Part shown: positions 7,958-55,410 of the stretch, piece after piece
Layout: each line of letters begins with the position of its first letter
How positions within the stretch are numbered: position 1 is the stretch's first letter
Source: Polytrichum commune
Lineage: Eukaryota; Streptophyta; Polytrichopsida; Polytrichales; Polytrichaceae
Assembly: GCA_950295325.1 (NCBI GenBank)
Contig: OX485807.1
Coordinates: 51,738,440-51,802,439, forward strand
Length of the DNA stretch: 64,000 nucleotides
Direction: 5' to 3'
Position numbers and translations under genes: made by a program
Notes under the pieces: model-generated
What the model saw: only the letters and a program-made list of their open reading frames with translations
What the model was told of the DNA's origin: nothing
Database searches by the model: none

Positions 7958-9469
7958 ATGAAGGAGAGGAGGAGGACATTTGTTTTGCTTTCAGGATTGT
8001 ACATGCTTTTGTACATGCTCGTAAAGCATGTGGTAGACATTCAAACGCTGATTTTGCAAGGAGAATGGGAGAAGTTAGCAATTTTGAGCTTGGTTTATGA
8101 GAATATGGGATATAGAGAGAGGAGTATATGGAATCAAGAACGGATGATTGGATTTGTAGACCGCTTATTGTTGGGTTCGTGGACGGAGAATGAATTTAGA
8201 AAGCGAACTCGAGTGACACACAATACATTCAAATTTTTGTGTGAGAGGTTAGGTCCTCGGGGGGGTAGTGTGTTAAAAAGTTAAGGATATAGGTGCGAAC
8301 AACCACTATTTTATAGGGGGGTATTACTTTCAATTTTTTTTTTCACATGCTATCATTATGTAAATTTCTACTTTGGGTTAATAGAAAAATGGCTTGCATT
8401 ACTTATAATTTCAAATTACCTATTATTCCATACCCTATAGTACTTTAAAGATGTCCAGTGCCATTTTTGATACCCTATATTACTCTTAAGCCCAATTATA
8501 AAATTTTGCTCCTATGTTTTTAAAATACCCTATCATTTGTTCGCACGTATATTGCTACTCCAACCAATGACTACCCCCCCCGAGGTTAGGTCCGTATTTG
8601 AAAAAAGAAATACTCAATTTAGGGTTACGGTGCCGGTGCAAGAGAAGATAGCAATGTTATTGCATCGATTGGGAAGTGGTGATGGATTGCAAACTATAGG
8701 CGACTTGTATGGAGTGTACAAAAGTACATTATCAATCGTAGTGAGGGAGTTTTGTAAAGCGGTTAGAAAACATCTACAACCGGTTTTTGTACAAACTCCG
8801 AGCGAATCACAGTTTAGAATTTTAGCTTCGAGGTTTGAAAAATTACATGGCATTCTTTATATTATAGGTGCAATAGATGGATCACATATTCTTGTTTTAG
8901 CCTCTCGAATTGGCGGACAAGATTATTACTGCAGAAAGTCATTTCATTCAGCAATTCTGCAAGGAATAGTCAGACCAGATTGTATGTTTTGGGATTATGA
9001 GTTTGGGTGGGCAGGAAGTCTTTACGACTGAAGCGTATTTCAAGTTACAAGAATCGGACGTGGATGTATAGAAGGTAAATTTCAGCCGTACAAACTTATA
9101 GGGGATGCGGCATATCCGGTTCGGCCATGGATGTATTGTCCGTTTAAGGGCGGGAAGACAACACTATCCGGGAAGAAGGCTAATTGAAATTTCATTCAAT
9201 CTTCAACTAGGATGTGTGTAGAGAGGGCATTTGGGATATTGAAGGGTAGGTGAAGGGTGATAATGAAGCGATGCGAAGTGCCTTTGCGGAATATGCCGGA
9301 TATTGTAGCCACTTGTATAGTGTTGCACAATTTGTGCATTGTGAACAATGAATGCATAGAAGAAGATTGGATAGTAGAGGCAGAAAATAAATCGAGTAGA
9401 AGGATTGGTGAGGGAGAAATACGAGAAGGTAGTGAATTACGGGGCGAAAGGCTGGAATTGTTGAAGTGA
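7958..9469 (+). pseudogene. HARBI1-like nuclease/transposase, disrupted
   Basis: The probable start is the ATG at 7958, after a leader with no clear signal. The N-terminal part contains RKRTRVTHNTFKFLCERLGP and is broken at 8256 by a 328-bp MITE. Beyond it the frame resumes with the helix-turn-helix-like GSGDGLQTIGDLYGVYKSTL, then the catalytic-core motifs GAIDGSHI (first Asp), DYYCRKSFHSAILQGIV and DYEFGWAGSLYD. Further on, in other frames or after stops, come KLIGDAAYPVRPWMYCPF (second Asp), ERAFGILKGR and CIVLHNLC (region of the final acidic residue). At least two in-frame stops and a frameshift follow 9031. The family cleaves and joins DNA using a DDE-type active site together with the Myb-like partner; this copy cannot make a full protein. 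Confidence 0.85.
8257..8584. mobile_element. 328-bp G-ended MITE inside the Harbinger transposase
   Basis: The ends are TCGGGGGGGTAGT and CTACCCCCCCCGAG, with a second inverted motif TGCGAACAA/TTGTTCGCAC further in. The element is flanked by perfect 9-bp direct repeats GTTAGGTCC (8248-8256 and 8585-8593). Nine-bp duplications are characteristic of mutator-like elements. A nearly identical second copy lies at 28717-29064. No coding capacity. Confidence 0.88.
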
Positions 9470-11983: not shown

Positions 11984-13836
11984 ATGAGACCTGCACCAAG
12001 TCCTGTACCGGGCCTAGCCGATGACCGAATTGCTCGAATCACGAAATCAACCAGAAATCATCCACGATGGGGTCGAAGGTCGAATACGATCCGTAAGGCG
12101 ACATCTTGGATAGGAAACCGAGTCCCACTGATTTCAAATTTGCTTGGAGGTTAGAAAGACTGCCTGTGGTGCATCCATTAACCATGGACCCTGGAACCTG
12201 GAAGAAAGTTTTGGGATTGCTCACCCAATTGCCAAATATCTTTCGTAAGGGCAGTGCACAAGCTGGAACCAAACCGGCAGAGTGGTACTTAGACCTCACA
12301 GCAGAGTGTTTGGTGCAAGCACAACAGACGATTTCAGGAAATCGGTCCCCTTCATTGAAATTTAACTACAAACAGCGGAGTACAAAACTACCGAGTTTGG
12401 CAGAAAATGGATGTACAGGAGTGAAACTGTACAAGTTTCAGTGTGAATACCTAGTGAACAAATTGGCAACGGCCGCCCTTAACAGCAGAGAGACATACCA
12501 CAATACTGCTGCTTGTTCTGCACAACAATCAACGTACCACAAAATTTTGAAGCTTCTCTACAGGTTGGCGACAAATGTGCAAGGTTTCGTGCACAGTTGT
12601 TGCAAAGAGGGTGGGATGCAAGTTGCCCTGACAGCGGCAAGTGTACCTATGTATGTGTGTTCATTGGGTTTTTATTCGGAGGTATGCACTAAGCTTTTGC
12701 ACCACAGCAAGAGTTTGGGAGTCGCATCGCCAAAAAACTTAGAGCTTGAGAGGCTGAGGGAGGCTGAAAAGAATGAAGTTGAAAGACTGGCTTTATTTGA
12801 TGAAGCCACTTTGATGGATACAATCAATTCTGTGATTCTACATGGGGAGTCAAGTAGTACATCTGTTCAATTACAGTTGGCCACCATTGTTCAGAAGAGA
12901 TTGGCAGCAAGCCAGGGTGCGTCAACTTCGGGCGCATCCAAAGTGTCATATTTGGAGGCTTGGCAAGTAGATGGCAAAAGTCTCCGTCGACTAGCACAGT
13001 TGGGTACGGGTAGTAGTGCTGCAGTTCACAAGGCAAAGTGGTTCGGAGCGATAGATGTTGCTGAAAAGGAGTTCGGAGTAGCGAGAAATGATAGTTTTGA
13101 CAAAGAAATGTCCTTATTAGCAGAGTTGTCTCATCCCAATATTGTATCAACCCTTGGGTATTGGGCGGATGAGCACTCATGTTCAATTGTCACGGAGTTG
13201 ATGGATGGAGATCTTTACCGCCTAATGGAAAAACTACCGCCTCAAGATGGGATGGGCCCTTTTAGCATCTCGGTAGCATGTGACATCATGCTTCAAGTAG
13301 CACAAGGCATGGCTTACATCCATGACAAAGGGGTTGTGGACCGAGATCTGAAGTCGCACAACATTCTATTCAAGCGGTCACAAGATGATGACATTGAGTA
13401 TATTTGTGTGAAAGTGGGTGACTTTGGGATTTCTAAGACCAAGGAGAGGAGCCATCTTTGTACCCACCAGACATCCAATACAGGTCCGGACAGATCCATG
13501 GCTCCAGAATTGATAGAATTGGCAGGGGTAAAGAAAAAGGCGCAAAGTGCATTTCATCCATACAAAAGTGATGTTTACAGTTTTGGGATGCTCTGTTTTG
13601 AAATCTTGACCGGGGAGGTGCCATTTTCAGCAATAAAGAACCCCCGAGAAGTGAAGAAGAATGTATTGGCTGGCATTCGTCTAGTGCTACCACTTCAATG
13701 TCCCCAGGAGCTCAAGAGGCTGATTGAATCATGTTGGGACTCTGATCCCACTCAACGACCGGATTTCCCAAAAATTTGTGAAGCACTGATGAGTTTATAT
13801 TTCTCCCTCTTGATTGGTACGTTTTTCTTCCACTGA
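11984..13836 (+). pseudogene. MLKL-like HeLo + kinase 1, block A (probably decaying)
   Basis: An open frame runs from 12106 to 13836, with its first ATG at 12184. The leader exon (ATG 11984, MRPAPSPVPGLADDRIARIT) is identical in B up to its start of divergence. In B it joins the kinase frame through an intron. In A almost all of that intron is deleted, so the leader runs out of frame and stops near 12151. About codons 60-210 form a helical, Cys-rich region with LYKFQCEYLVNKL and LLYRLATNVQGFVHSCC, resembling the DUF1221/HeLo-like domain of plant MLKL proteins. The kinase follows: LGTGSSAAVHKAKW (glycine loop), VAEK (Lys), FDKEMSLL (helix C Glu), VGDFGIS and MAPEL. The catalytic HRD is DRD (codon 412, 13339-13341) where B has HRD. 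The frame passes a donor-like ATTG|GTACGT at 13816/13817. Plant MLKL proteins act in resistance and cell death at membranes; that role is inferred here. Confidence 0.7.
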
Positions 13837-14459
13837 ATTTAGACTAATTTGTACTCACCTCCTGTTTTGTGTAAGATATTATGATGAAAGTGTGAGGGTC
13901 AGGTTGTCGCATTGGCCCAGTGTGTGTTTGGGTGTTTAAGTGGGCACATTGACATTAAGGTACATATCCAAGTCAAATGTACATTTAAGAAAAGAAACCG
14001 TTTAGGAAATTTTGAGTAGCACTTGAAAACCCCAAAATGATTCATATTGACTCCAAATATAGCTCAGATACCTCTCAAATTCTAAATACAAACTTCTATA
14101 ATCAATTGAGCACTAAAACATATCACTTTCTTACATATTACATTGAAAAGTATAATTAGAATAGTAAAGAAGATACCTTTCATTCTTGTCACATTGACAC
14201 TTGTATATGTTTGTTCAAAAGTTAAGAAATATGATTGTTGTCTACATCTAAACACAAGTTTAATTCATAAACATAACCCTTTAAATTTTTTTAGTAACTT
14301 ATGGTTAGCTTATTGGCGATGTTTGTTGTTTCTCATAGATACCATTTAATTAGAAATGAATATGAAAATCATTGTTTATATTGGATTTGCAATTGTGTTT
14401 TGTTCAAGATTAATGTGTATGTAACATTTATTTGACATTTTTATTTATGTGGTTATCAG
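13817..14459 (+). other. Probable intron between kinase 1 and kinase 2, block A
   Basis: It begins GTACGTTT and ends TTATTTATGTGGTTATCAG with a pyrimidine-rich 3' region. Both flanks are phase 1, giving an in-frame join that replaces Gly by Glu before YPDFSKEKLE. The orthologous stretch in B is 51385-52032. No AATAAA is seen after the kinase 1 frame. It may alternatively be intergenic, with kinase 2 starting from its own ATG. Confidence 0.5.
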
Positions 14460-16073
14460 AGTATCCTGATTTTTCAAAAGAGAAGTTGGAAACTATGGTT
14501 TTCAGACAAAGTTTACATGCAAATCATTCCGCCAGTGAACCACAATGGTATCTAGACCGTGCAAGACAATCCATGGAGCATGTGCAATTGATGACTTCCA
14601 CTAAGGTGAAAATACACTACAATCAATGTCAATATCTTGCAGATGCATTGAAAACGGTTGTTGAGATCAGCTCCCGAGATTTAGGCCCACTGTATGCCGG
14701 CACTCAATCCCGGAGTGATACCAAATTGGCGATGAATTCTTCTTCTGCACGCAAAACAAAATTAATGTACCAACTTGAACTCCTCATGCTTCTTTGGTAG
14801 TCTGCGACGGAAATAGAGCACTTTATAAAATATTGTTGTAGTCTCAGCTGGTTGAAAATTGCTGTCACATCGGGAAGTGTGGCACAATCTCCATTGGTGA
14901 GTGTGTCTTCATGGGGGTATCATTTGAAGTTGTGCAAATTTGTGCTCCTGCGCAACAACAGTTTGGGTGCAACATCACTAACAATGAATGATATTGAGAG
15001 CATGAAGGAGGCTGAACTGCTTGCTGTAAAAGGGAGAGCTTCAGTTGATGATGCCACTTTGTGGAAAACATTATCTCTGATACTGTCAAGCAGCTCTTGC
15101 AAAACAGATGAATTTCAATTGGCCACCATCCTTTGTAAGAGATTGGAAGTGAAGCAGGCTATGCTGACAACTAATGGCCGCGTAGAAACACCTGATGACC
15201 GTTTAAAGATAGACTCAAGGGCTTTGGGGAAGAGGGTGATGTTGGCAAGAGGACCATCTGGTCATGTATACAAATGTACATGGTATGGGGCAAAGGTTGC
15301 TATCAAGGTCATCCGTCATCATGGGAAATTTAATGATATTTCAAACTCAAGCGGTCTCAGCCATCCAAACATTGTGCATATGCTAGGATATTCGGACGAT
15401 GAGAGCGAATGTATCATTAATGTGATGGAATTGATGGACATGACTCTTTCTTCTCTTATAGAAGAGAGGCTACAAAATCTACCAAAGAACTCGACTCCGT
15501 TCAACATCCAAGAGGTTGTGGACCTTATGCTTCAAGTAGCAGATGGCATGAACTACCTTCACCAACTCAAAGTAGTTCACCGAGACTTGGCACCATCAAA
15601 TATTCTAGTGAAACGTGTGAGGGTAACCAATTTGAACCACAACGTTCCGGAGTTGTTTTATGCCAAAGTGGCTGACTTTCAGGCTTCTGTGACAAAGCTA
15701 AGAAGCATGACTTATTCCGACCAGCCCAAGATAGGAACATTAAGATATGTGGCTCCTGAGGTGATGAGAAGAAAAGGTGATGAACGGGATGAACATAAAT
15801 CCGCAAAATATCCATTCAAAAGTGATATTTTTAGTTTCGGGATGCTTTGCTACAACATCATAACTGGAAACATTCCTTTTTCAACTCTTGGTGGTCGCGC
15901 AATAACGGAAAGAGTATTGAATGGTGATCGCCCGAGTTTGCCAAAACGATGCCCCCAAGAATTAAAGACATTGATTGAAGCTTGTTGGCACCTAGATCCT
16001 ACTTCTCGTCCATCTTCTACTCAAATTTGTCAAACACTAAGGTGTCTCAAATATGCACCACTACTTTGGACAT
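14460..16073 (+). pseudogene. MLKL-like HeLo + kinase 2, block A (nonsense and lost motifs)
   Basis: The frame matches the intact kinase 2 of block B but has TAG at 14798-14800 where B has CAG (LLW*SATEIEHF against LLWQSVTEIEHF). It also has an 18-bp in-frame deletion of SSGKNV near 14598. The HeLo-like part retains YNQCQYLADALKTVVEISS and the kinase retains VAIK. The glycine loop is altered (LARGPSGHV) and the helix C segment is shortened (FNDISNSSGLSHPN). The catalytic loop is HRDLAPSN, with Ala for Lys (15590-15592), and DFG is DFQ (15680-15682). It could not be an active kinase even if read through. The frame ends at a donor-like ACAT|GTATGT (16073/16074). Confidence 0.8.
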
Positions 16074-16657
16074 GTATGTTACTTATTATCCCACATTATG
16101 TGACTATTGCATCATAATTTTTGTTAATTATTGCATCATAATTGACTATCTACTACCCCTCAACGTTCAAAAACACTACAAGTTTCTTGTTGATAGTGAA
16201 ACTACTCTGAGATTTGACCAAATTGATTGATTTCTCTTGGAATATGGTATGATTGGCTTAAATTCATTAAAATTGGATTTCCTTGAAAATTTCAAAAGGA
16301 AGATAAATTGCTCTATTCTCAACACTTTATTAAGGATTGAAGGCCACTAGATGCATGCAACATGCATACTTATTTCAAAATAAAAATATGTTTTCAAATA
16401 ACCTAAAGTGCTAGTCAACCACCAACTTGTGAGATTAGAATACTTATAGTATCGAATATCTTTTTGAAGTATGATGATAATATGAAATTCATGTGTAATT
16501 GCATCATTGTTTCCATAGCTATTTGTAGCATAAAATGGATTTTTGTTGGTCATGTGAATATCAGACAACGAAGGTGAAAGCCAAGCCCAACAATGGTTTC
16601 AAGAAGGCCACCTTGTTCTAGAGACCCAACATATTGCAAAAAAAATTGATTTTTCAA
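16074..16657 (+). other. Probable intron between kinase 2 and kinase 3, block A
   Basis: It starts GTATGTTACTT. The best phase-1 acceptor that keeps the frame open into kinase 3 is TTTTTCAAG|AC at 16657/16658. The equivalent B region is 53677-54286. The exact acceptor differs between copies, because the A acceptor would read into a TGA in B. The call is therefore tentative. Confidence 0.4.
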
Positions 16658-17832
16658 GACTATCAGTTACGAAAATAGAAAATTCGTGTCTGCACCGCGG
16701 ATTTCAGTTGGGAAAAGGTGGGCAAGAGACATATGTGTACGAGACAATCCATCGTCAAAGCAAAGCGGCTCACAACCGTGTTGCTCAAAAACGTTTTGTT
16801 CCAGCATACAATGAAGACTTCCAAAATGAAATTACGATCTTATCATATTTGAAGCATCCCAATATTGTATCCTTGGTTGGCTATGCAGTGGACAATCGTT
16901 CATGCTCCATTATTATGGAATTGATGGATGGCGATCTTCACGATCACATGTGTAGAAAGATGCGTAGGATGACTCCCGGGGGGGCTTTCACCATTGATGA
17001 TGCAATTCGTGTTATGTTGCAAATAGCAGAGGGCATGGATTATGTCCACGGGAAGAATGTGGTGCACAGGGATTTGAAATCATACAACATTCTAGTAAGG
17101 GAAACAAATGTCAAGGGAAAGCATTTGGATGTTAAACTAATTGATTTTGGCCTCTCCAAACAAATGAAACCAGGCAGCGATTTGCACTTCAATGTTGGTA
17201 CTCTCAGTTGGATGGCTCCGGAAGTGATGAGGCCCAAAAGCATGTCAAGAAGGAGAACCTCAAAAAATTTCTATCTCTCGAATGCAATGGGGAATATTCC
17301 ATTAATGTCACAAAAACGCATGAAGAAGTTTCCTGACCGATTCAAGAGCGACATCTATAGCTTTGGGATAGTTTGCTTCGAGATCTTAACCGGAAACTCA
17401 CCGACTTTCCACTTGAAGAATGGAAGTGGCAATGCATTTCAAAGAGAGCCTGAGAAAGCAGCCATGTTTCTTCTTTTCCTTTTTCTTGAAGGTCTGATTA
17501 AACTTGAGGAGGACCCTCAAAAGACGACCTGTGTTGTTCTTCTTCTTCTCAAAGGCCTCAATTTTAAGAGGGATCCTCACAGAGCAATTATAATTCTTAC
17601 GATTCTTCATTTGAAGTTCAAGATGAAGAGGGATCAAAACGAAGTACTGAAGGAAAAAGTGATGTCTGGTCTTAGGCCGATTCTACCAGATTATTGTCCT
17701 CCTAAACTCAAGGCTCTTATTGAAAGTTGTTGGGACAAAGATGCTAGTACACGCCCTACTTTTGCTCAAATTATCATGGTCTTGAAAGGTCTTCTCTTGC
17801 AATACAAATTTTCCCAGGCCCTAGCCTTTTAG
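16658..17832 (+). CDS. Kinase 3 with hydrophobic C-lobe repeat, block A
   Basis: The kinase domain lacks the HeLo-like region. Motifs in order: LGKGGQETYVYE (glycine-rich loop), VAQK (Lys), FQNEITIL (helix C Glu), MELMDGDLHDHM, VVHRDLKSYNILV with intact HRD (about 17065-17073), LIDFGLSKQ, GTLSWMAPEV, KSDIYSFGIVCFEILTG and LIESCW near the end. All residues needed for catalysis appear present. Between subdomains X and XI an extra segment of about 70 residues contains three consecutive 20-22-residue units (17446-17628), each a charged DP/EP start, a hydrophobic run and a KxxRD-type end. No ATG precedes the glycine loop in this exon, so the start must come from an upstream exon. It is probably the third domain of a tandem-kinase protein. 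The stop TAG is at 17830. Confidence 0.75.
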
Positions 17833-21462: not shown

Positions 21463-22400
21463 TTAGGAATTGGTACCACACGCACTAAATGGGATAATCA
21501 ATGTAGCATCTCTTGATACCCCAAATACCTTTTCTGCGACCTCTGCTACTCCGAACCACTTAAATACTTTGTACACTTTGGCAGCGGCACACGCACCCAA
21601 CTCTTCTCGTCGCAGGAGAGTTTGACCTCTAGTTTGATCTGTTAGCCAAGCTTCTGAATATGACAATCAAGACAAGCCCGAAGTTCGACATAGCTTGGCT
21701 TACTTCCAATCTCTTCTGAACAATGGTGGCCACTTGTAATTGACCAGATTTACTACTTGACTGTGTGTGTAGGATCAGAGATTTGATTGTATCCATCAAA
21801 GTGGCTTCGTCAAGTGAAGCCTGTCTTTTAACTTCATACATTTCAGCCTCCCTTGGCCTCTCGAGCTCCGTCTGTGTAGCATTTTGGCTCCCAAATTGTT
21901 GTTGTGGCACAAAAGCTCAGTGCATGCCTCCAAATGAAAAGCCAATGAACACACTCGCCGCTGTGAGGGCAACTTGCATCCCACCCTCTATGGCATAGCA
22001 ACCGTGCACGAAACCTTGGGCATTTGACGCCAATCTGTAGAGGAGCTTCAAAAGTTTGTTGTCCCTTGAAGTATTGAGGTTTGTCTGTCTGCCTGCTGTT
22101 AAAGATGGCCAATGTAAATTATTTCACTTGGTAATCACACTGACTGGTACAATTTCACTTCAGTGGATATATTTTCTAGCCAATCTAGGTAGTTTTTTTT
22201 TTTATAGAATGTTGACGTTGATTGTGGTTGAATTTCATTGGAGGGGAACCATTTTCTGAAACCATACGTTGTGCTTGCTCCATACACTACTCTGTTGGTG
22301 AGGGCTAAGTACCAACCACTCCACTGGTTTGGCTAACTCAACAGCTTGTGAACCAAGTCTGGAGTCCCACTTTGCAAAATTCCAACTTCATGGGTCCTAG
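21463..22400 (-). pseudogene. Antisense fragment of the MLKL-like kinase 1 gene
   Basis: Read on the minus strand, the fragment runs from the WYLDL-like region (near 22350, frameshifted) through the HeLo-like region to the start of the kinase domain. Recognisable pieces are AIFNSRQT, ELERPREAEMYEVKRQASLD, EATLMDTIKSLILHTQSSSK, QVATIVQKRLEVSQAMSN, and KWFGVAEVAEKVFGVSRDAT next to the kinase Lys. Kinase 1 of A and B has the same order (ELERLREAEKNEVERLALFD, EATLMDTINSVILHGESSS). Several frameshifts and stops break it, and it ends before HRD. It lies in the opposite orientation, 8 kb downstream of the intact paralogue. Confidence 0.85.
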
Positions 22401-48391: not shown

Positions 48392-48500
48392 ATGAGACCT
48401 GCACCAAGTCCTGTACCGGGCCTAGCCGATGACCGAATTGCTCGAATCACGAAATCAACCAGAAATCATCCACGACGAGGCGGAAGGTCGAATACTATTC
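48392..48500 (+). CDS. Leader exon of the MLKL-like kinase gene, block B
   Basis: ATG 48392 encodes 36 residues, a Pro-rich start (MRPAPSPVPG) and a basic tail (TRNHPRRGGRSNTI). The exon ends in phase 1 at ATTC|GTAAGG. Joining to GG|GAT at 49682 gives Arg and then the kinase 1 frame without a stop. Without splicing the frame ends after 39 codons. The basic tail could serve in localisation, but no defined signal is seen. Confidence 0.55.
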
Positions 48501-49681
48501 GTAAGGCCTAAATGGAAGGCAGGAAATCAAAATTCGATGTTCAAGCTGATATTACGAAAATGCGGCGATGATAACCTATGAGCTACTGGCGTCAGATTTG
48601 ACCTGAAAGGCCTCCTTCGATGCTCTACAGTCTATGTCGGGTGCATATGTTTCCAACCCCTAAATCTCCTGTCGGTAACCTCATTCCCAAACCCTCGAGT
48701 AGTTGGCCGCATCACTTAAATTATACACCACCAGTATTCTCTATAATTGAATGATCGATCCATATCTTTTGTGGCAGGGGCATCGTCGATCTATCTTCCG
48801 TAGTTTGAGTAGCAGACTCGTGACAATCTGCAACTGTTATGATCGAGTTTGGATAAGTCCAGCTTGACTTCATCTGCTAAGGATTGTGGACCCATTTACG
48901 AGCGAATTTCACTTGTCTTGATTCTTGCTACTGACATCAAAGGGCCTTGATAGGACCACACCACAACGGTGGAATCTTTGCTGGGCTCACATACGGGTAG
49001 TGACAATGCCCAAGGTTGAAGCCTCTCTTCTTCTTGCGTAGACATGGTCGGCGTCATATCTCGTTCTCTCATTGGAATCTTCGTCCAACTGTAGCAAGCT
49101 ATTGTGAAGAAGCGTCGCCGCCGATACAGCAGGGAGCTCTGCATACGCCACACCAGTCAAGTTTGAAGATGAAACGAGTCACGGCTCCTACTATGCTTAT
49201 ATTCCAGCAGAGATAGAAGCTTCCATCATTGGAGCATTGGAATGAAGAGTGGTGTGTCGAGGGAGAGGAAGAAGAGCGACCTAGCCACGACGAAAATTTT
49301 GAGACTCTGAGAAGAGAAGTGGCCGAACTCACTGTTCTTCATTTAAAATCTGTAGTGTAGAGTTTACGGGAAGCTTAGCACGATGAATTACAAGCTCTTC
49401 TTTGCATGATCCGAATGCAGGGTTAAGGGAAATTGAGATCCAAAGGTTGTCACGAAACTTAACCTTAAGCTGTATTTCAAGAGTATTGTGCTGGTATTGA
49501 ATCGTACTCTTCGGCTGCAGTGTTTCGGGGTTCAGGCCCCAATCAACTTTTGGGCACGGAGTGATCTCACTCAATTGCATATATAGATGATCACTTCGGG
49601 AATCCTTATGTTTGTAGTGCAGTTATAGTACATGTACATAATGAGTCTTTGGATTTTTTCTGCAATCACCATCCGTTGAAG
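48501..49681 (+). other. Leader intron, block B
   Basis: 1181 bp from GTAAGGCC to ATCCGTTGAAG, with TTGGATTTTTTCTGC upstream of the acceptor. Block C keeps its first about 290 bp. Block A lost nearly all of it. Reading frames inside are short and not conserved. Confidence 0.55.
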
Positions 49682-51357
49682 GGGATATCTTGGATAGGAA
49701 ACCGAGTCCCACTGATTTCAAATTTGCTTGGAGGTTAGAAAGACTGCCTGTGGTGCATCCATTAAGCATGGACCCTGGAACCTGGAAGAAAGTTTTGGGA
49801 TTGCTCACCCAATTGCAAAATATCTTTCGTAAGGGCAGTCCACAAGCTGGAACCAAACCGGCAGAGTGGTACTTAGACCTCACAGCAGAGTGTTTGGAGC
49901 AAGCACAACAGACGATTTCAGGAAATGGGTCCCCTGCAGTGAAATTTAACTACAAGCAGCGGAGTACAAAATTACCGAGTTTGGCAGAAAATGAATGTAC
50001 AGGAGTGAAACTGTACAAGCGTCAGTGTGAATACCTAGTGGAAAAATTGGCAATGGCCGCCCTTAACAGCAGAGCGACACACCTTTATACTGCTGCTTGT
50101 TCTGCACAACAATCAACGTACCACAAAATTTTGAAGCTCCTTTACAGATTGGCGACAAATGTGCAAGGTTTCGTGCACAGTTGTTGCAAAGAGGGTGGGA
50201 TGCAAGTTGCCCTGACAGCGGCAAGTGTACCTATGTATGTGTGTTCATTGGGTTTCTATTTGGAGGTATGCACTAAGCTTTTGCACCACATTCATTTGGG
50301 AGTCGCATCGCCACCAAGCTTAGAGCTTGAGAGGCTGAGGGAGGCTGAAAAGAATGAAGTTGAAAGACTGGCTTTATTTGATGAAGCCGTTTTGATGGAT
50401 ACAATCAATTCTGTGATTCTACATGGGGAGTCAAGTAGTACATCTGTTGAATTACAGTTGGCCACCATTGTTCAGAAGAGATTGGCAGCAAGCCAGGGTA
50501 CGTCATCTTCGGGCGCATCCAAAGTGTCATATTTGGAGGCTTGGCAAGTAGATGGTAAAAGTCTCACTCAACTAGCACAGTTGGGTACGGGTAGTAGTGC
50601 TGCAGTTCACAAGGCAAAGTGGTTCGAAGCGATAGATGTTGCTGAAAAGGTGTTCGGAGTACCGAGAAATGATAGTTTTGACAAAGAAATGTCCTTATTA
50701 GCAGAGTTGTCTCATCCCAATATTGTATCAACCCTTGGGTATTGGGCGGATGAGCACTCATGTTCAATTGTCACGGAGTTGATGGATGGAGATCTTTACC
50801 GCCTAATGGAAAAACTACCGCCTCAAGATGGGATGGGCCCTTTTAGCATCTCGGTAGCATGTGACATCATGCTTCAAGTAGGACAAGGCATGGCTTACAT
50901 CCATGACAAAGGGGTTGTGCACCGAGATCTGAAGTCGCACAACATTCTATTCAAGCGGTCACAAGATGATGACATTGAGTATATTTGTGTGAAAGTGGGT
51001 GACTTTGGGATTTCTAAGACCAAGGAGAGGAGCTTTCTTTGTACCCACCAGACATCCAATACAGGTCCGGACAGATCCATGGCTCCAGAATTGATAGAAT
51101 TGCCAGGGGTAAAGAAAAAGGTGCAAAGTTCATTTCATCCATACAAAAGTGATGTTTACAGTTTTGGGATGCTCTGTTTTGAAATCTTGACCGGGAAGCT
51201 GCCATTTTCAACAATAAAGAACCCCCGAGAAGTGAAGGAGAAAGTATTGGCTGGCATTCGTCCAGTGCTACCACTTAAATGTCCTCAGGAGCTGAATCAT
51301 GTTGGGACTCTGATCCCACTAAACGACCGGATTTCCCAAAAATTTGTGAAGCGCTGA
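49682..51357 (+). pseudogene. MLKL-like HeLo + kinase 1, block B (C-lobe frameshift)
   Basis: The exon frame continues from the leader exon. The HeLo-like region contains LYKRQCEYLVEKLAMAAL, then LLYRLATNVQGFVHSCC. The kinase has LGTGSSAAVHKAKW, VAEK, FDKEMSLLAELSHPNIV, an intact VVHRDLKSHNILF (HRD at 50920-50928), VGDFGISK, MAPELIELPG and SDVYSFGMLCFEILTG. A 13-bp deletion near 51293, relative to A (where GAGCTCAAGAGGCTGATTG stands), shifts the frame. The protein therefore ends VGTLIPLNDRISQKFVKR at 51357 and lacks the last helices of the C-lobe. The DNA beyond still carries the ancestral donor ATTG|GTACGT at 51384/51385. Kinase function is doubtful, although all catalytic motifs upstream are present. 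Confidence 0.75.
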
Positions 51358-51384
51358 TGGGTTTATATTTCTCCCTCTTGATTG

Positions 51385-52032
51385 GTACGTTTTTCTTCCA
51401 CTGAATTTAGACTAATTTGTACTCACCTCCTGTTTTGTGTAAGATATTATGATGAAAGTGTGAGGGTCAGGTTGTCACATTGGCCCAGTGTGTGTTTGGG
51501 TGTTTAAGTGGGCACATTGACATTAAGGTACATATCCAAGTCAAATGTATATTAAAGAAAAGAAACCGTTTAGGAAATTTTGAGTAGCACTTCAAAACCC
51601 CAAAATGATTCATATTGACTCCAAATATAGCTTAGATACCTCTCAAATTCTAAATACAAACTTCTATAATCAATTGAGCACTAAAACATATCACTTTCTT
51701 ACATATTACATCGAAAAGTATAATTAGAATAGTAAAGAAGATACCTTTCATTCTTGTCACATTGACACTTCTATCTGTTTGTTCAAAAGTTAAGAAATTT
51801 GATTGTTGTCTACATGTAAACACAAGTTGAATTCATAAACATAACCCTTTTAATTTTTTTTAGTAACTTATGCATGTTTAGCTTATTGGCGATGTTTGTT
51901 GTTTCTCATAGATACCATTTAATTAGAAATGAATATGAAAATCATTGTTTATATTGGATTTGCAATTGTGTTTTGTTCAAGATTAATGTGTATGTAACAT
52001 TTATTTGACATTTTTATTTATGTGGTTTTCAG
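51385..52032 (+). other. Probable intron between kinase 1 and kinase 2, block B
   Basis: It starts GTACGTTT and ends TTATTTATGTGGTTTTCAG, a better pyrimidine tract than in A. Because kinase 1 is frameshifted here, it may now act as upstream DNA or a leader intron of kinase 2. Confidence 0.5.
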
Positions 52033-53676
52033 AGTATCTTGATCTTTCAAAAGAGAAGTTGGAAACTATGGTTTTCAGACAAAGTTTACATGCAAATCAT
52101 TCCACTGGTGAACCACAATGGTATCTAGACCGTGCAAGACAATGCATGGAGTATGTGCAATTGATGACTTCAAGTGGAAAAAATGTTTCCACTAAGGTGA
52201 AAATACACTACAATCAATGTCAATATCTTGCAGATGCATTGAAAATGGTTGTTGAGATCAGCTCCCGAGGTTTAGGCCCACTGTATGCCCGCACTCAATC
52301 CCGGAGTGATACCAAATTGGCGATGAATTCTTCTTCTGCAAGCAAAACAAAATCAATGTACCAACTTGAAATCCTCATGCTTCTTTGGCAGTCTGTGACG
52401 GAGATAGAGCACTTTATAAAAGATTGTTGTAGTCTCAGCTGGTTGAAAATTTCTGTCACATCGGGAAGTGTGGTACAATCTCCATTGGTGAGTGTGTCTT
52501 CATGGGGGTATCATTTGAAGTTGTGCAAATTTGTGCTCCTGCACAGCGACACTTTGGGTGCAACATCACTAACAATGAATGATATTGAGAGCATGAAGGA
52601 GGCTGAAGTGCTTGCTGTAAAAGAGAAAGCTACAGTTGATGATGCCACTTTGTGGAAAACATTATCTTTGATACTGTCAAGCAGCTCTAGCAAAACAGAT
52701 GAATTTCAGTTGGCCACCATCCTTTATAAGAGATTGGAAGTGAAGCAGGCTATGCTGACAACTAGTGGCCGCTTAAAAACACTTGATGAACGTTTAAAGA
52801 TAGACTCAAGGGCTTTGAGGAAGAGGGTGACATTGGGAACAGGATCATTTGGTAGTGTACACGCAGGTACATGGTATGGGGCAAAAGTTGCTATCAAGAC
52901 CATCCTTTATAGGCCGTATACTGATGTACTTCAAGGAATTTCAATCTTAAGCGGTCTCAGCCATCCAAACATTGTGCACATGCTAGGATATTCGGACGAC
53001 GAGAGCGAATGTATCATCCTTGTGATGGAATTAATGGACATGAATCTTTCTTCTCTTATACACAAGAGGCTACAAAATCTACCAAATAACTCAACTCCGT
53101 TCAACATCCAAGAGGTTGTGGACCTTATGCTTCAAGTAGCAGATGGCATGAACTACCTTCACCAACTCAAAGTAGTTCACCGAGACTTAAAACCATCAAA
53201 TATTCTAGTGAAACGTGTGAGGGTAACCAATTTGAACCACAACGTTCCGGAGTTGTTTTATGTCACAGTGGCTGACTTCGGGGTTTCTGTGACAAAGATA
53301 AGAAGCATGACTTATTCCCACCAGACCAAGGATGTAGGAACAACAAGGTATATGGCTCCTGAGGTGATTCGACAAAAAGGTGATGAATGGGATCAACATG
53401 ATTCCGCAAAATATCCATTCAAAAGTGATATTTTTAGTTTCGGGATGCTTTGCTACAACATCATAACTGGAAACATTCCTTTTTCAACTCTTGGTATTAG
53501 TGCAATGAAGAATGCAATATTGAATGGTGATCGCCCGAGTTTGCCAAAACGATGCCCCCAACAGTTAAAGACATTGATCGAAGCTTGTTGGCATCCAAAT
53601 CCTACTTCTCGTCCATCTTCTATTCAAATTTGTCAAACACTAAGGTGTCTCAAATATACACCACTACTTTGGACAG
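52033..53676 (+). CDS. MLKL-like HeLo + kinase 2, block B (best preserved copy)
   Basis: The exon is open throughout, with its first ATG at 52068 (MVFRQSLHANHSTGEPQWYLD). The N-terminal helical region contains IHYNQCQYLADALKMVVEIS and LEILMLLWQSVTEIEHFIKD, then CCSLSWLK. This matches the order NQ.QC..L - LE.PL.EL..IF...E..I..C - .W..K of plant MLKL/DUF1221 proteins. The kinase has LGTGSFGSV (glycine loop), VAIK, VVHRDLKPSNILV (HRD at 53178-53186), VADFGVS, GTTRYMAPEV and SDIFSFGMLCYNIITG. The helix C position usually held by Glu reads QGISIL (Gly at 52935-52937), unlike kinases 1 and 3, so it may be an unusual or weak kinase. It ends at a strong phase-1 donor ACAG|GTATGT; without splicing it would stop at 53720. 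It is likely spliced to kinase 3 to give a tandem-kinase protein. Confidence 0.8.
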
Positions 53677-54286
53677 GTATGTTGCTTATTATCCCACATT
53701 ATGTGACTATTGCATCATAATTTTTGTTAATTATTGCATCATAATTGACCATCTACTACCCCTCAAGGTTCAAAAACACTATAAGTATCTTATTGACAAT
53801 CAAACTACTCTGAGATTTGAGCAAATTAAATGATTTCTCTTGAAATATGGTATGCTTGGCTTAAGTTCTTTAAATTTGGATTTCCCTGAAAATCTTAAAA
53901 ATGAAGATAAATTGCTCTATTCTCAACACTTTATTAAAGATTGAAGGCCACTAGATGCATGCAACATGCATACTTATTTCAACATAAACATATGTTTTCA
54001 AATAATCTAAAGTGCTAGTCAACCACCAACTTGTGAGATTAGAATACTTATAGTATCGAATATCTTTTTGAAGTATGATGATAATATGAAATTCATGTGT
54101 AATTGCATCATTGTTTACATAGCTATTTGTAGCATAAAATGGATTTTGTTGGTCATGTGAATATCAGACAAGAAACTTAAGGTGAAAGCCAAGCCCAACA
54201 ATGGTTTCAAGAAGCCCACCTTGTTCTAGAGACCCAACATATTGCAAAAAAATTAGATTTTTCAAGACTATCAGTTATGAAAATAG
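53677..54286 (+). other. Probable intron between kinase 2 and kinase 3, block B
   Basis: It starts GTATGTTGC and ends ATGAAAATAG. Joining gives GAA TAT TCA, in frame with YSCLHRGIQLGKGG. An alternative is that kinase 3 starts independently at ATG 54277, which is inside this interval. Confidence 0.45.
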
Positions 54287-55410
54287 AATATTCATGTTTG
54301 CACCGCGGAATTCAGTTGGGAAAAGGTGGGCAAGAGACATATGTGTACGAGACAATCCATTGTAAAAGCAAAGCGGCTCACAACCGTGTTGCTCAAAAAC
54401 GTTTTGTTCCAGCATACAATGAAGACTTCCAAAATGAAATTACAATCTTATCATATTTGAAGCATCCCAATATTGTATCCTTGGTTGGCTATGCAGTGGA
54501 CAATCGTTCATGTTCCATTATTATGGAATTGATGGATGGCGATCTTCACGATCACATGTGTAGAAAGATGCGAAGGATGACTCCCAGGGGGCCTTTCAGC
54601 ATTGATGATGCAATTCGTGTTATGTTGCAAATAGCAGAGGGCATGGATTATGTCCACGGGAAGAATGTGGTGCACATGGATTTGAAATCATACAACATTT
54701 TGGTTAGGCAAATTAATGTTAAGGGAAAGCATTTGAATGTCAAAGTGGCTGATTTTGGCCTCTCCAAACAAATGAAACTAGGTAGCGATTTGCACTTCAA
54801 TGTTGGTACTCTCAGTTGGATGGCTCCGGAGGTGATGAGACTCAAAGGCATGTCTAGAAGGAGAACCTCAAAATTTGTCTATTTCTCGAATGCAATGGGG
54901 AATATTCCATTAATGTCACAAAAACGCATGAAGAAGTTTCCTGACCGATTCAAGAGTGACATCTATAGCTTTGGGATAGTTTGCTTCGAGATCTTAACCG
55001 GAAACTCACCGACTTTCCACTTGAAGAATAGAAGTGGCAATGCATTTCAAAGAGAGCCTGAAAAAGCAGCCATGTTTCTTCTTTTCCTTTTTCTTGAAGG
55101 TCTGATTAAACTTGAGGAGGACCCTCAAAAGACGACATGTGTTGTTCTTCTTCTTCTCAAAGGCCTCAATTTTAAGAGGGATCCTCACAGAGCAATTATA
55201 ATTCTTACGATTCTTCATTTGAAGTTCAAGATGAAGAGGGATCAAAACGAAGTACTGAAGGAAAAAGTGATGTCTGGTCTTAGGCCGATTCTACCAGATT
55301 ATTGTCCTCCTAAACTCAAGGCTCTTATTGAAAGTTGTTGGGACAAAGATGCTAGTACACGCCCTACTTTTGCTCAAATTATCATGGTCTTAAAAGGTCT
55401 TCTCTTGTAA
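54277..55410 (+). CDS. Kinase 3 with hydrophobic C-lobe repeat, block B (HMD pseudokinase)
   Basis: 377 residues if started at ATG 54277, or an exon from 54287 if spliced to kinase 2. Motifs: LGKGG (14-18), VAQK (38-41), helix C Glu in FQNEITIL (Glu 54), MELMDGDLHDHM (83-94), VVHMDLKSYNILV with HRD changed to HMD (133-135; Met codon 54676-54678), ADFG (158-161), GTLSWMAPEV and SDIYSFGIVCFEILTG. A C-lobe insert (about 252-323) holds three units at 260-281, 282-301 and 302-321, with hydrophobic runs FLLFLFLEGLI, VVLLLLKGL and AIIILTILHL. The LIESCW region follows. Loss of the catalytic-loop Arg alone does not prove inactivity. In a tandem arrangement a pseudokinase next to kinase 2 would be expected to be regulatory. 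Confidence 0.75.
   Translation: MKIEYSCLHRGIQLGKGGQETYVYETIHCKSKAAHNRVAQKRFVPAYNEDFQNEITILSYLKHPNIVSLVGYAVDNRSCSIIMELMDGDLHDHMCRKMRRMTPRGPFSIDDAIRVMLQIAEGMDYVHGKNVVHMDLKSYNILVRQINVKGKHLNVKVADFGLSKQMKLGSDLHFNVGTLSWMAPEVMRLKGMSRRRTSKFVYFSNAMGNIPLMSQKRMKKFPDRFKSDIYSFGIVCFEILTGNSPTFHLKNRSGNAFQREPEKAAMFLLFLFLEGLIKLEEDPQKTTCVVLLLLKGLNFKRDPHRAIIILTILHLKFKMKRDQNEVLKEKVMSGLRPILPDYCPPKLKALIESCWDKDASTRPTFAQIIMVLKGLLL

Follow-up and report, generated by a model that had tools for sequence, protein, structure and literature searches.

A cluster of four related kinase triplets on one chromosome of the moss Polytrichum commune probably encodes an MLKL-like tandem-kinase protein, in which a first HeLo-kinase (K1), a second HeLo-kinase (K2) and a kinase without a HeLo region (K3) would be joined across two phase-1 introns. 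Two of the copies lie in the window analysed here, a stretch of 64,000 nucleotides of contig OX485807.1 (C5:51738440-51802439), as near-identical blocks A and B, each consisting of one K1, one K2 and one K3 exon. The other two, C and D, are located further downstream and are intact, while A and B are decaying. There is good support for a genomic unit with the order HeLo-kinase, HeLo-kinase, kinase, and in C and D the reading frames and splice sites indicate that this unit is probably one gene.

A kinase triplet in four copies

The 408-Mb assembly (64 contigs) was searched with the proteins and the best candidates were scored, so that weaker copies could be missed. Among the matches scored, the K1-K2-K3 unit occurs four times, always on C5. 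Copies C (L001, C5:51867577-51874610) and D (L002, minus strand, ~C5:51956046-51963107) are found ~65 and 155-160 kb downstream of the window copies. Exon order, orientation and splice sites are kept in all four triplets found, which is beyond chance, and the introns of A-D are 83-98% identical. Pfam places three kinase domains in tandem in both B and A, confirming the preliminary description of this locus. That description also had the gene start at 48392. A 5' exon from this position was rejected as coding, the donor being absent in copy C and affected by a deletion in A, with copy D not readable; the four copies have an ATG in common, which in B lies at 49768.

The splice junctions are largely as first described. 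The K1 donor ATTG/GTACGT (the slash marks the exon boundary) follows base 51384 in B and 13816 in A, and the sequence TTG ATT G/GTACG is invariant across A-D. K2 indeed starts after TTTTCAG/AG in B (52033), the corresponding acceptor of A being TATCAG/AG (14460). The K2 donor ACAG/GTATGT is present in B (53676), whereas A has ACAT/GTATGT (16073). Copies A, C and D have phase 1 at both junctions, whereas the K1 frame of B stops ahead of its donor. A phase-1 K3 acceptor had been assigned to each block, at 54287 and 16658. The acceptor conserved in A-D is instead located at 54168 in B and 16565 in A, and that of B is out of frame, although a different AG (exon from 54182) would give phase 1.

The K3 open frame starts 7 bases 5' of this acceptor in A, C and D. 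No ATG precedes the K3 glycine loop in these three of the four copies, as had been noted for block A, while a Met is present in B. The 45 codons from the GESQ start of K3 to the glycine loop are nevertheless under purifying selection (ratio of nonsynonymous to synonymous rates, omega, 0.30, p=0.018), and coding constraint on K3 runs from three codons after the acceptor onward. Because the frame opens at the acceptor and lacks an ATG, yet is constrained from GESQ, K3 needs an upstream exon. The missing ATG and the frame opening just ahead of the acceptor make the K2-K3 link strong, and a K2-K3 fusion is very probable as judged from the sequence.

When the exons are joined at the conserved junctions, copies C and D each give a single frame with one terminal stop, of 1513 and 1504 aa respectively. 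As gene models, C and D would therefore have two or more kinase domains in one protein; neither A nor B has an intact frame. The copy A model has a stop at residue 658, corresponding to the TAG in K2 (Table 1). In copy B, a 13-base deletion near the K1 end shifts the frame to a stop that precedes the donor, and 5 extra bases just 3' of the K3 acceptor leave the conserved acceptor out of frame. Block B as it stands cannot make the full triple protein. The single triple-kinase gene originally proposed for the window therefore finds its intact frames outside it, in C and D.

Table 1 Features of the triplet blocks and of a related relic (window coordinates)
Feature	Position	Strand	Remarks
Block B triplet	49768..55410	+	
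Block B K1 exon, HeLo-like region and kinase	49768..51384	+	frame broken by 13-base deletion, stop 51355-51357
Block B intron 1, GT..AG	51385..52032	+	phase 1 in A, C, D; final 60 columns more conserved than the intron background
Block B K2 exon, HeLo-like region and kinase	52033..53676	+	frame open; 12 residues (split codon counted) precede the conserved Met
Block B intron 2	53677..54167	+	phase 1 in A, C, D
Block B K3 exon, kinase without HeLo	54168..55410	+	~75-aa hydrophobic insertion; 5 extra bases after ancestral acceptor; alternative phase-1 start 54182
Block A triplet	12184..17832	+	
Block A K1 exon	12184..13816	+	open
Block A K2 exon	14460..16073	+	in-frame TAG 14798-14800; catalytic motifs HRDLA, DFQ
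Block A K3 exon	16565..17832	+	open; no ATG before glycine loop
Decayed relic of K1 HeLo region	21674..22295	-	internal stops

HeLo regions, kinase motifs and selection

The two MLKL-like HeLo regions of the preliminary description are borne out at the level of the family. A profile was built from ten HeLo-like regions: two from the triplets, one from a kinase pair on contig C6, three each from single kinases and from PNL-type genes (protein kinase, nucleotide-binding site, leucine-rich repeat; PK-NBS-LRR) and one from L018, a related kinase in which no NB-ARC was seen. This profile matches 6lba (E=1.2e-7) and 6ka4 (E=3.6e-4), with nothing else below 0.3, and a four-sequence profile restricted to the three PNL-type genes and L018 matches 6lba (E=0.0014). 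Both structures, annotated as 'Protein kinase family protein' and 'F22L4.1 protein' respectively, we take to be Arabidopsis MLKLs. The triplet HeLo regions match other family members by sequence, and their assignment as HeLo appears to hold at that level.

In the PDB, the K1 and K2 kinases again match 6ka4 and 6lba best, and the K3 kinase matches 6lba best, barely ahead of roco4. Kinase motifs were assigned by eye. Every copy has the HxD aspartate and DFG in both K1 and K3, with variation in the preceding residues (DRD in K1 of A, and HMD and HKD in the K3 exons of B and C). The K2 motifs are intact in C; A has HRDLA and DFQ, the alphaC Glu is replaced by Gly in B, and D has HRDLR. A conserved insertion of ~75 aa, with hydrophobic stretches such as AAMFLLFLFLEGLIKL, sets K3 apart from K1 and K2, which lack it. 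By eye these stretches resemble three degenerate repeats; a tandem-repeat search of the DNA found none. In a kinase tree of 29 rows, from which P5 and N14 (truncated) were dropped, the four K1 sequences group together, as do the four K2 and the four K3 sequences; the tree does not resolve the mutual order of these clades.

Selection was assessed using maximum-likelihood codon models (our own code) on the four sequences and the tree AB/CD, leaving out B K1 after the frameshift as well as codons with gaps or stops. This tree is backed by 25/28 informative sites in K1, 78/84 in K2 and 20/27 in K3. The omega values of K1 (1.22, p=0.34) and K2 (1.20, p=0.18) do not differ from 1, in contrast to 0.35 for K3 (p=2.9e-8). 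Adding a site class with omega >1 (M2a over M1a) gave p=0.0069 for K1 and p=3.7e-9 for K2, compared to p=0.26 for K3. The HeLo regions, with omega 1.10 and 1.08, evolve as fast as their own kinases. A contrast of nonsynonymous to synonymous changes against K3 in the independent pairs A-B and C-D yielded combined p values of 7.5e-4 (K1) and 5.0e-5 (K2). Hence K1 and K2 are fast-evolving and K3 is constrained, placing the parts of the triplet under opposite selection regimes.

K1 and K2 are nonetheless not free of constraint, since far fewer nonsense changes were seen than expected: none against 7.4 in K1, where B has a frameshift besides, and one against 15.2 in K2 (K3, none against 5.3). In K2, 36 positions show at least three residues among the four copies, and 10 of the 36 fall within the 36 residues that span the glycine loop to alphaC. 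These variable positions include the alphaC glutamate and the lysine of the catalytic loop, with motifs assigned by eye.

Alternative readings of the locus

The K1-K2 link is weaker than the K2-K3 link, and several observations weigh against a single MLKL-like triple-kinase gene. K1 could be a single MLKL-like gene with a small last exon of its own, K2-K3 being a separate adjacent gene that starts at the conserved Met. A GT donor follows the kinase at the same position in 17/17 HeLo-kinase exons tested (patterns chosen by eye, L018 not included), in frame and phase 1 in 14/17; B K1, P3 and P5 carry it behind frame damage, and in S10 and S11 it is a weak GTCAAT. Four of the 17 exons belong to single-kinase relatives with no second kinase nearby among the matches listed. 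As the donor position is common to these relatives, K1 might terminate in a last exon of its own, and the matching phases first offered as evidence, while confirmed at both junctions in A, C and D, are by themselves weak evidence. A comparison of S10 with S11 showed similarity fading within ~250 bases past the stop, with no conserved downstream exon seen. Furthermore, the K2 Met is found in an ACTATGG context (A at -3, G at +4) in all four copies, such that K2-K3 could be a separate gene, and five pairs of HeLo-kinase and kinase are present on C6 without a third member. Against two genes, the K2 frame is in phase with K1 in A, C and D, and K1 lies directly upstream of K2 in 4/4 copies. The acceptor end of intron 1 is also conserved above background (55/60 invariant in the last 60 columns across A-D versus 74% overall, p=0.0005), although this could also reflect a K2 5' leader. 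The first 40 columns of intron 1 (35/40 invariant, p=0.03) and the last 60 columns of intron 2 (49/60 invariant, p=0.014) are also conserved above background; a 24-column stretch tested at the intron 2 start was picked after being seen. Taken together, we consider two adjacent genes unlikely. Three separate neighbouring kinase genes, duplicated together and matching in phase by accident, are highly improbable: we estimate that accident would produce the match at two introns in ~1/9 cases, but in A, C and D no start codon precedes the K3 glycine loop and the K3 frame opens at the acceptor, where its coding constraint also starts. The AATAAA hexamer, described as occurring only after K3, does little to separate these readings. 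On the plus strand of B it is indeed missing from the introns and present after K3 (55486), but it also occurs in the K1 exon (51213); in A it occurs in the K1 exon (13632), in intron 2 (16379) and after K3 (17879). As the window count is at chance (107 found, 103.7 expected), its placement carries little weight.

A different reading is that the cluster is dying, its triplets being pseudogenes or functional only until recently. Both window copies are broken, A and B each carrying at least one disabling change, K1 and K2 as a whole have an omega indistinguishable from 1, and the family may be decaying. Set against this, C and D are intact, the omega of K3 is 0.35, and stops in K1 and K2 are far below the unconstrained expectation, making a dying cluster very unlikely. 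The selection results themselves are based on only four sequences, and the K1-kinase omega, which depends on an unusually low synonymous divergence (0.019-0.028), is the weaker half of the contrast. The domain assignments meet objections of their own. HeLo profiles built from K2 only or from the window only match nothing relevant and no MLKL, and the triplet proteins have no Pfam HeLo/DUF1221 match at E<=1. AlphaFold models on window-only alignments are poor, with a mean predicted local distance difference test score of 40.8 for the HeLo region and 34.8 for K3. The margin of the MLKL match is small over RAF kinases (K1) and roco4 (K3). On balance, the conserved junctions and the intact frames of C and D still lead us to favour K1-K2-K3 as one gene.

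Proposed function, known systems and neighbouring features

If the triplet is translated as one protein, it could act as an intracellular immune receptor, with the two HeLo-kinase modules as a variable sensing or bait half and kinase 3 as the conserved catalytic output. We infer the single transcript, the role in immunity and the direction of signalling alike. Such a division into bait and output fits the opposite selection acting on K1/K2 and K3. A membrane-permeabilising role of the HeLo regions is possible; a conserved executor role is not favoured because these regions evolve as fast as their kinases. Tentatively, and with somewhat more doubt than confidence, we propose a bryophyte-type immune receptor of ~1500 aa that combines two fast MLKL-like HeLo-kinase bait modules with a constrained executor kinase in cis. 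It might have arisen within the MLKL-like family independently of the cereal tandem kinases, might possess its own membrane-acting HeLo bundles, and might need no helper nucleotide-binding leucine-rich repeat receptor (NLR).

Individual elements of this design are already known; statements on the papers cited refer to the portions of their text available to us. Wheat Pm13 comprises an MLKL_NTD and a kinase and confers resistance (PMC10951266). The triplet resembles plant MLKLs including Pm13 in having an N-terminal region of the HeLo or four-helix bundle (4HB) type followed by a kinase, and its K1 and K2 kinases best match 6ka4 and 6lba. Plant MLKLs differ in being a single HeLo-kinase, while the triplet has this module twice, followed by a third kinase. 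The description of AtMLKLs is that of pseudokinases (PMC10951266), in contrast to K1 and K3 with their HxD aspartate and DFG in 4/4 copies. The tandem kinase proteins WTK1/Yr15, Sr62 and RWT4 (PMC6170490, PMC8956640, PMC12830362) likewise have several kinase domains in one predicted protein, some variable or degenerate, but unlike for the triplet no HeLo region is mentioned in the available text of these papers. The Yr15 survey found 175/184 kinase domains to be receptor-like kinase-related, whereas the triplet kinases match plant MLKL and RAF best; the same paper lists a single tandem kinase protein for the moss Physcomitrella and proposes a decoy role for the pseudokinase (PMC6170490). Tandem kinases are divided into two- or three-domain types in the Sr62 paper (PMC8956640), and cell death triggered by Sr62 and RWT4 depends on a helper NLR (PMC12830362).

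Moss PNL genes provide a further point of comparison. Four PNL-type genes, L012-L015, were observed at C5:1.99 Mb, C6:36.75 Mb, C7:22.54 Mb and C5:1.03 Mb. They start with the same kind of N-terminal helical, MLKL-like region and kinase, which suggests that PNLs are MLKL-NLR fusions. This is not stated in the accessible portions of PMC11218826 (where the terms 4HB and HeLo are absent) or PMC3352924. PNLs differ from the triplet in carrying NB-ARC and LRR after a phase-0 kinase-NBS intron (PMC3352924), the triplet introns being phase 1. An origin of the triplet by exon shuffling from PNLs was rejected, as the kinase exon, in those PNLs examined that have it in full, runs well past the kinase and the kinase-NBS intron is phase 0 (PMC3352924), with which the L012 sequence agrees. 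No NB-ARC match was found in the window among the candidates scored (best 126 of 466, so that a weak one may have escaped).

Three kinases in one protein (Sr62), HeLo with kinase in resistance (Pm13) and kinase-NLRs in mosses (PNL) are hence already known from the parts of this literature available. No protein with HeLo-kinase twice and a third kinase was found in the literature searched, as far as its accessible text goes; the tandem-kinase survey of Reveguk et al. 2025 may list one. If the proposed model is correct, a HeLo-bearing tandem kinase outside flowering plants would suggest repeated origins of the sensor-plus-executor kinase design and would tie the MLKL family to that design. The four copies with opposite selection on their parts would then offer a natural test of bait versus executor kinase.

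Five tandem pairs (L003-L007) were observed at C6:37.89-39.08 Mb, each with a HeLo-kinase and a second kinase ~0.5-3 kb apart; several members are damaged. A candidate phase-1 acceptor recurs ahead of the second kinase, 15 residues before its KEDISN motif in 4/5 pairs and 40 residues before it in L003, but many other phase-1 AGs and start codons are possible. In L003 and L005 the first kinase is truncated or no longer in frame, and in L003 a stop also lies upstream of the second. The pairs are possibly two-kinase genes with a phase-1 junction. Elsewhere, a helical-looking open frame of 302 aa (L009:5399-6307) was observed ~620 bases downstream of the single HeLo-kinase S9, with no Pfam or PDB match of note.

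A bacterial promoter and terminator scan of the window was uninformative for a plant. At window positions 8471-9031 there is a weak match to a DDE transposase (E=0.0069) that falls short of the curated cut-off. On the minus strand, an open frame at 62309-63133 matches an NLI-interacting-factor-like phosphatase (E=2.5e-11).

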